Source: Bacteroidales bacterium
GTDB taxonomy: Bacteria > Bacteroidota > Bacteroidia > Bacteroidales > UBA932
Assembly: GCA_016281315.1 (NCBI GenBank)
Contig: JAEEIJ010000051.1
Location: 1-64,000, forward strand
DNA: 64,000 nucleotides
Direction of reading: 5' to 3'
Within the stretch, counting starts at the first letter, position 1; each line of letters begins with the position of its first letter. Below are positions 57,330-59,040 of this stretch, in pieces. Position numbers and translations under genes: made by a program. Below the pieces are notes generated by a model, which made no database searches, was not told the origin of the DNA, and saw only the letters and a list, made by a program, of their open reading frames with translations.

Positions 57330-58118
57330 ATGAAAAAAGCATTAATAATCATCGCTCTGCTGGCTATTAGCTGTGGCCTGGCAGGCGCACAAGACTTGAT
57401 TACCAAGAATGACGGGACAGACATCAAGGCAAAAGTTCTGGAAGTATCTCCTACGGAGGTGAGGTACAAGATGTGGGATAACCAAGAGGGGCCCGTATTT
57501 GTGTTGAATGCGGCCGATATCCTCCTTATCCGCTTCGAGAATGGGGAGAATTACGTAATCGAGAAAAAAGAGGCGGCAAAAGCGGACGATCATCCCTTAT
57601 TTTTTACATCCGATGTATCCATTCTGGAGCAAAGCGGGCTCAAATACGAACAGTTAAAGGAAGTATACAATTCCGACGACTATGACCAACTCTATCGCCC
57701 CCGTTACAAACTGGGATATCCCTGGCTGAATCTGCTATTCCCCGGACTGGCCCAGTACTGTATGAGTGAACCCGGACTGGGAACCAGGTTTGTGCTGATA
57801 TACTTGGGTGGCGTCATCTTGAGTAATATCGGAAGTTCTATGTTGGGCTCCTACACAACCGACGGCCATTACGTAAGAAGCCCTTCTTACGGAGTGGGTA
57901 CCGCACTTGCACTCACTGGATGTGCGATTTTCGTCGGCACGGAAATCTGGTCCATCATCAATGCCTATGATGTGGCCAAAGTAAAGAGCCTCTACGTAGA
58001 AGATATACGAAATTATAACCGGAGCTATTCGTTCACGCTGGCTCCCACTGTAGTCTATTCTACAACGCCCGCGGGCATACGCCCCGCTCCGGGAATCGGG
58101 CTAAGGGTCACGTTCTGA
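57330..58118 (+). CDS. Exported/membrane protein, unknown function
   Basis: MKKALIIIALLAISCGLAGAQDLITKNDGTDIKAKVLEVSPTEVRYKMWDNQEGPVFVLNAADILLIRFENG (repeatedly seen N-terminal pattern in Bacteroidota exported proteins), then TM/barrel segment. Confidence 0.65.
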   Translation: MKKALIIIALLAISCGLAGAQDLITKNDGTDIKAKVLEVSPTEVRYKMWDNQEGPVFVLNAADILLIRFENGENYVIEKKEAAKADDHPLFFTSDVSILEQSGLKYEQLKEVYNSDDYDQLYRPRYKLGYPWLNLLFPGLAQYCMSEPGLGTRFVLIYLGGVILSNIGSSMLGSYTTDGHYVRSPSYGVGTALALTGCAIFVGTEIWSIINAYDVAKVKSLYVEDIRNYNRSYSFTLAPTVVYSTTPAGIRPAPGIGLRVTF

Positions 58119-59040
58119 TTCCTTTCGAGGGCTGGTGAGAGAAACTGCGGCGGGGGCCTTCGGCCTCCAGCCAATACTCGTGGTCAAAGGCATCGCCGGG
58201 GTAGCGGTACGCGCCCTCGTGGCCGATGCCGAACGCCATATAGGTAATGGGCAGCCCCATCTCCAGAAACATCTTTTCGTAGAAGGTCTGGACCTCGGTA
58301 ACCGCACTTAAGTCCATCGGGAGGGCACACTCATCCCCAAATCGCCTTCGCTTCGCTTCGGCCCCTCCCACTGCGCCTTCGGCTTGTGGGCCCCTCCCTC
58401 TTACGTGGCCGAGGGTGGCCACGGATTTGGGGACGAGTGTGCCCTCCCGATAGACATCCGTGCTACAGATGTATACCGGCAACCCATTGACCTTACAAAC
58501 CGCCTGGGTGTATTCGTAGAGATAGCGGGAATCGGTTTTTAGATGAATCAGGCCCTCCGGCTTCAGGAACTTGCGGTAGCGCTCCAGAAAAAGAGGCGAG
58601 GAGAGGCGGGCGTTCTCGCTGCCGCGAAGCTGCGGATCCGAGAAGGTGAGCCAGATTTCCGAGACCTCGGAAGGGCCGAAGAAGGCTTCGATGAACTCGA
58701 TGCGGGTGCGCAGGAAAGCCACGTTCGGGAGAGCGTTCTCGGTGGCATACTTCGCCCCTTTCCAGAGCCGGGCGCCCTTGATGTCCACGCCGATGTAATT
58801 GATTTCCGGATGCCTTAACGCCAGGGCGATGGTGTAATCCCCTTTCCCACAGCCCAGTTCCAGCACGATGGGATGGTCGTTACCGAACATCTCGCGGCCC
58901 CATCGGCCTTTGATGGCGTGGTCCCGCACCCGGAGCGCCTTGCTGCCGGGCTCCTTGTCCAGGATGGCTTCGGCCGATGGCTGCAGCAGACAGCGGAAGG
59001 TCTCGTTCTCCGCGAATTTCTTCAGCTTGCCGTGTCCCAT
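58108..59040 (-). CDS. trmB: tRNA (guanine-N7-)-methyltransferase TrmB, carrying ~46-codon in-frame insertion
   Basis: IVLELGCGKGDYTIALALRHPEINYIGVDIKGARLWKGAKYA, EIWLTFSDPQLRG, LKTDSRYLYEYTQ; insertion between STDVY and DLSAVTEVQTFYEKMFLEMG. Confidence 0.9.
   Translation of the reverse strand: MGHGKLKKFAENETFRCLLQPSAEAILDKEPGSKALRVRDHAIKGRWGREMFGNDHPIVLELGCGKGDYTIALALRHPEINYIGVDIKGARLWKGAKYATENALPNVAFLRTRIEFIEAFFGPSEVSEIWLTFSDPQLRGSENARLSSPLFLERYRKFLKPEGLIHLKTDSRYLYEYTQAVCKVNGLPVYICSTDVYREGTLVPKSVATLGHVRGRGPQAEGAVGGAEAKRRRFGDECALPMDLSAVTEVQTFYEKMFLEMGLPITYMAFGIGHEGAYRYPGDAFDHEYWLEAEGPRRSFSHQPSKGIRT
58316..58451. mobile_element. 136-bp palindromic/MITE-like element with 28-bp terminal inverted repeats, inside trmB
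   Basis: ATCGGGAGGGCACACTCATCCCCAAATC (58316-58343) vs GATTTGGGGACGAGTGTGCCCTCCCGAT (58424-58451), 27/28 complementary; internal nested hairpins. Confidence 0.82.

Follow-up and report, generated by a model that had tools for sequence, protein, structure and literature searches.

A palindromic element with a conserved pseudoknotted core and site-specific arms lies in frame in conserved genes of a Bacteroidales genus

A palindromic element is embedded in frame in the tRNA (guanine-N7)-methyltransferase gene trmB of the window, by which we mean the whole stretch of DNA analysed here (64,000 nucleotides, positions 1 to 64,000 of contig JAEEIJ010000051.1), and the best explanation of it and its relatives is probably a mobile element that is non-autonomous and belongs to a single Bacteroidales genus, with in-frame survivors that are translated and a palindrome that is remade with each insertion. 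Beyond what the first-pass annotation of this DNA had described, we found that the arms of the palindrome differ from site to site, being apparently built from the target, and that the part common to the copies is a conserved pseudoknotted core. The gene and the components of its insert are as follows, in window coordinates:

58108 to 59040, (-) strand: trmB ORF of 310 aa, bearing the insert; intact tRNA (guanine-N7)-methyltransferase, Methyltransf_4
58303 to 58449, (-) strand: insert segment of 147 nt (49 codons), from Tyr197 to Val247, delimited by orthologue alignments
58424 to 58463, (-) strand: upstream arm (gene sense), with a tight 32-nt part at 58424-58455; encodes ..VYREGTLVPK
58404 to 58423, (-) strand: core hairpin P2, CGTGGCC-ACCCTC-GGCCACG, from fold and covariation
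58396 to 58400, (-) strand: GAGGG, pseudoknot partner (by complementarity) of the P2 loop CCCTC (58411-58415)
58367 to 58390, (-) strand: core hairpin P3, CCCAC...GTGGG with a variable loop, from the fold, with three pairs changed on both sides
58344 to 58361, (-) strand: core P4 region (CCGAAGCGAAGCGAAGGC), a hairpin in most copies
58304 to 58343, (-) strand: downstream arm (gene sense), with a tight 32-nt part at 58312-58343; encodes ..DECALPMDL

The 310-aa ORF matches Methyltransf_4 with an E value of 4.2e-24, and the insert is read through in frame and without a stop, core (58344-58423) included, just as the first-pass annotation had proposed. The palindrome is real, since the element region folds at -104.8 kcal/mol compared with -60.9 ± 4.5 for shuffled sequences (z -9.8) and its arm motif has 0.00 expected occurrences in shuffled window sequence, but the bounds first assigned to it (58316-58451) are too narrow. 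The inverted repeat, initially described as 28-bp termini matching at 27 of 28 positions, extends further, to arms of 40 nt each that are 88% complementary across an intervening 80 nt, the tightest portion being 32 nt with 30 of 32 positions paired (58312-58343 with 58424-58455). The outermost bases of these arms are conserved TrmB sequence, and the upstream arm was matched, by eye, to the native start of the loop (HEG or QEG in sister species). Same-genus TrmB orthologues (55-84% identical to the window protein) supplied the empty site: in thirteen orthologues without a large insert the same loop mostly spans 9-16 residues (median 9), or 27-48 nt (most commonly 27), as against 49 residues here. 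Most relatives lack the segment, and the idea of an ancestral TrmB domain fails accordingly. Other repeats are also read in frame in sister-species TrmB (L058, L062), in truA of genome G117 (L128) and in murB of genome G409 (L150), with peptides that include CHSERSEESL and VISSEAEGGVEKS, indicating that proteins of this genus are lengthened by at least two kinds of small repeat; the TrmB of genome G023 (L073) has a tandem repeat with SAHGEVVSDGAGGK near its C-terminal end, away from the insert site.

The core is present in about 28 copies in the 2.1-Mb genome of the window, 15 of them inside genes, so that the sought-for in-ORF and intergenic copies exist and the trmB insert is far from unique. 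A 160-base query returned 39 BLAST matches in this genome and the core pattern 27, one of which (L049) is not an element. Of 61 genomes sampled from the same genus, 36 contain the exact core pattern, and it is absent from all 40 genomes that represent other genera of the order; the genus, possibly GTDB Cryptobacteroides, is large, 400 of its genomes being a draw from a larger group. A scan of named genomes yielded at least 119 stretches with the core, nearly all in rumen and gut Bacteroidales assemblies from different groups, which argues against an assembly artefact; a match in Thermoanaerobaculum, of another phylum (L211), was discarded as a chance match to the core pattern. Altogether, 167 element copies were collected. 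No Rfam family matched the element, the sole significant match being a TPP riboswitch (65 bits) that starts just downstream of one intergenic copy (L032:1581-1679). We found no report in the literature of the element in this genus, the precedents found being those of Rickettsia and the enterobacteria.

The collected copies have in common P2 with a six-base loop, a run complementary to this loop just 3' of it, P3 and, mostly, P4, and fold and covariation thereby substantiate the hairpin-rich core (GTGGCC..GGCCAC; CCCAC..GTGGG) noted at the outset, giving P2 and P3. The pseudoknot is complementary in 111 of 111 distinct cores (39 of 39 in the alignment), with the P2 loop and its partner occurring as ACCCTC/GAGGGA (86 cores), ACCCCC/GGGGGA (24) or GCCCTC/GAGGGA (1); in all 111, the first P2 pair that varies is one of the canonical pairs GC, TA and CG. 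When 39 cores were aligned, 92.6% of the cells were standard pairs, and cells changed on both sides numbered 104, compared with 34 ± 5 after shuffling and much lower numbers in controls with a slid partner, relatedness being retained by the slid control and not removed by the shuffle control. This comparative evidence suggests that folding of the core, whether as RNA or as single-stranded DNA, is under selective pressure. A tuning of the element to be free of stops was considered and set aside, as 3.0 of its six frames are open versus 2.0 in shuffled sequence, a modest excess only.

Each of the 15 in-gene copies of the window genome, about half of the total, keeps the frame and lacks stops; five have a sense core and ten an antisense one. 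The remaining copies lie outside such genes. The hosts are trmB, murE, murB, ksgA, truA, truB, tilS and a trmH-like gene, together with tyrA, an nrnA-like gene, folP, mtaB, ribF and the genes for a YgiQ-like radical SAM protein and an M20 peptidase; most of these names are readings of the sequence, several of the families being Pfam-confirmed in other species. For frame alone, the chance expectation over 15 copies is (1/3)^15, about 7e-8. From arm to arm, the length is often not divisible by three, and the frame is regained over the whole insert, as would be expected if selection acts on its translation. Ten near genomes have orthologues with short empty sites and with additional inserts at matching positions (in six species at mtaB, in three at the radical SAM gene), all of these inserts being in frame. 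Of 102 copies in other species, 48 are spanned by an ORF of 180 aa or more, though some of these ORFs may be spurious, and the Pfam-confirmed hosts there include RNase R, DnaX, RsmH, MurB, MtaB and RibF, among more. No broken host gene was seen at ten copies that lack a spanning ORF and have ORFs abutting on both sides: most of these lie between two different protein families (two without a Pfam match on one side), and one lies between tandem paralogues that each start at the first position of the family. The element, as its sequence reads, decays into ordinary-looking loops. By eye, decayed in-frame pieces of the core were observed in short loops of mtaB (L133, L149) and folP (L176).

This in-frame retention argues for translation of the insert and against its removal at the RNA level. 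A self-splicing RNA or a translational bypass that discards the insert before or during translation could draw on the very stable stem joining the insert ends and on the conserved pseudoknot, but such removal needs neither frame nor freedom from stops, and all in-gene copies have both despite the irregular spans. Moreover, cores reside in genes in both orientations, and the frame-blind insertion of such systems was not what we observed, as the in-gene copies and the filled orthologous sites all preserve frame, leaving removal highly improbable. We give just as little credence to the segment having been co-opted as a useful TrmB domain instead of being a selfish insert. Several species do have extra sequence at the same TrmB position, yet relatives carry different inserts there or none, and an AlphaFold model (26 sequences) that scores most of TrmB above a pLDDT of 85 falls below 50 at insert residues 207-238, consistent with a disordered loop in the predicted structure. 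In addition, the trmB insert of genome G269 (L118) has different arms and the opposite core orientation: about ten arm positions differ from the window copy, six of them changed on both arms with pairing kept, and by sequence comparison the two look like independent insertions.

The arms are specific to each site. Within each copy the two arms pair, though arms are unrelated between copies: for copies whose cores are at least 94% identical, median arm identities are 0.44-0.53, compared with 0.44 for random pairs. Exceptions with similar arms amount to about five pairs; the arm-sharing pairs are mostly taken to be one locus in sister genomes, and two copies of the window genome (L021 and L026) lie at different loci and have most of their arms in common. 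Sister copies at the same locus show few arm differences, mostly uncompensated, implying that the pairing dates from birth and is not actively maintained. Over 30 sites, filled loops are longer than empty ones by a median of 1.12 arm lengths (sd 0.96), in a length account that is noisy and rests on empty loops that themselves vary; this excess of about one arm is near that of one native plus one new arm, not zero or two. Much the same total would result if both arms were half native, an arrangement excluded, by eye, only at argE, murE and murB. At these three sites, where the comparison with an empty site is clearest, a native arm is accompanied by an inverted copy of itself: in argE, the native APVFPEDT is encoded by the left arm, the right arm is the reverse complement of the left, and the native ITGRGS comes directly after it; in murE, the left arm is native (by eye); and in murB, the native LTPQ lies in the right arm and is copied by the left arm (by eye). 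Only about five innermost arm positions are conserved across copies, and a weak pattern (pyrimidine-rich at 7-14 and purine-rich at 17-26 from the core, with nothing beyond about 27) is in our reading a preference for certain targets combined with a short stretch carried by the element, to which part of the inner arm may belong. The proposal that each arm is a fold-back hairpin of its own was rejected, with 4.51 within-arm matches versus 4.50 across copies. At folP, the copy of the window genome (L051) and that of genome G117 (L177) have similar arms and opposite core orientations, as if the core had flipped between inverted arms or had been inserted twice.

An ordinary MITE with terminal inverted repeats of its own, in which the arms evolve fast and their pairing is kept by selection or palindrome correction, would account for the weak pattern common to the arms and for the arms that L021 and L026 share, and palindromes are prone to templated correction. 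Such an element would not be expected to have arms at chance identity beside nearly identical cores, nor arms that change so little, and mostly without compensation, between sister genomes; under correction the flank would also be replaced, whereas the sites are longer by about one arm, and we judge this explanation unlikely. Much less likely again is that the core inserts into pre-existing palindromes in the target, for example terminators, and that the arms are the two halves of a split target. Although the many intergenic copies and the site-specific arms would suit it, the empty coding orthologues are short loops without a palindrome of such length, the empty sites of argE, murE and murB were seen to lack one, and filled sites are longer than empty ones by about one arm.

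According to the preferred reading, a mobile element that remakes its palindrome, a structured core of ~60-110 nt (P2 with its loop-3' pseudoknot, P3 and P4) would insert within and between genes, entering beside a preferred purine-rich (GGAGG-like) stretch, and ~20-30 nt of adjacent target would be copied inverted on the other side, resulting in the order flank, core, inverted flank and downstream sequence. This copying would be of the fold-back (snap-back) type, primed by self-complementary core ends (AATC/GATT, AACC/GGTT, GGGGGCT/AGTCCCCC), and, since compensating changes have preserved the core fold, it is probably as a folded single strand that the element moves. Insertions that keep the frame would survive as extra, probably disordered surface loops, whose presence in the protein we infer from the observed frame statistics. 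That the element travels without arms, its folded core inserting single-stranded and generating, with every insertion, a new and perfect inverted copy of the flanking target, is advanced tentatively, at somewhat less than an even chance. To our knowledge, insertion by fold-back copying of the target is known for no bacterial MITE. Fold-back synthesis from single-stranded hairpins is reported for yeast inversions (PMC7467729), a precedent that makes the mechanism plausible and is no test of this element.

A Y1 (HUH) transposase is the best candidate for the mobiliser, albeit unproven. Y1 genes were found in 13 of 14 element-rich versus 6 of 14 element-poor genomes, but eight Y1 genes, including both of the window genome, have no core copy in the flanks that were read and have other repeats beside them, and the enzyme is thus a candidate only. 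The Y1 genes at L340, L341, L342 and L345 are followed by repeated palindromes of their own, such as AGCCAGGTGGT..ACCACCTGGC, which are unlike the element studied here. A reverse transcriptase is not favoured, RVT_1 being found in six of 14 element-rich and six of 14 element-poor genomes and not in that of the window. Within the Y1 and reverse transcriptase families of these 28 genomes, no autonomous copy or partner with the same ends was recognised.

The closest precedent is that of the Rickettsia palindromic elements (RPEs), which, as summarised in a review of MITEs (Ogata et al. 2000, 2002, via PMC10969869), are ~150 bp long and lie in frame in unrelated genes, giving fusion peptides. On that summary (PMC10969869), our element is likewise a palindrome of ~100-150 bp dispersed within and between genes, with in-frame insertion into unrelated protein genes (15 of 15 in-gene copies here) plus intergenic copies. 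The analogy to Rickettsia elements drawn in the first pass hence holds for an in-frame, protein-embedded palindrome, whereas membership in the Rickettsia families is unsupported, the arms not being common to the copies. RPE copies have one full-length consensus that includes their ends; no such common consensus was found here, with arms at chance identity between near-identical cores. The element also differs from RPEs in phylum (Bacteroidales), in its site-specific arms, in a core with a covarying pseudoknot and in the use of both orientations and several frames. This comparison is by description, and the lack of an Rfam match says little, as Rfam may not include RPEs. The mark of a classic MITE, a set of terminal inverted repeats that every copy has, was not found either, and reading the sites by eye revealed no direct target site duplication but a reverse-oriented copy of the flanking sequence. 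Because its arms are not common to the copies, we file the element neither as an RPE nor as a classic MITE.

Like the enterobacterial RU-1, RU-2 and RU-3 (units of 127, 168 and 103 bp) and ERIC, it is a small MITE-like repeat inside annotated genes with the repeat reading frame kept (PMC2759123), but here the arms vary per site and conserved genes hold about half of the copies in the window genome. With REP/BIME sequences, which TnpA_REP/RAYT Y1 transposases mobilise, it has in common a hairpin repeat without a gene of its own and the occurrence of Y1 genes in most element-rich genomes. REPs, however, are 20-40 bp long and mostly outside genes (PMC3733652), the Y1 genes inspected here adjoin other repeats, no GTAG or CGTC tag was recognised at the core end, and none of the eight Y1 genes is flanked by the element in the manner of a cognate RAYT gene.

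What we judge to be new is the host group, the pseudoknotted core and arms that appear to be rebuilt at every site. Protein-embedded palindromes have been reported as a peculiarity of Rickettsia, and the same outcome is seen here in gut and rumen Bacteroidales. The affected genes are conserved ones for tRNA and rRNA modification and cell-wall synthesis, some of them essential, and a selfish repeat appears to lengthen their proteins without breaking them. With empty, filled and decayed sites across many genomes, the entry of a selfish repeat into conserved proteins becomes testable, and the same series of sites makes testable the acquisition of a new palindrome with each insertion. A caution also follows, in that loops in proteins of gut bacteria can be mobile DNA and not domains. 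If true, an element that travels without arms would continually supply a large gut genus with in-frame protein loops.
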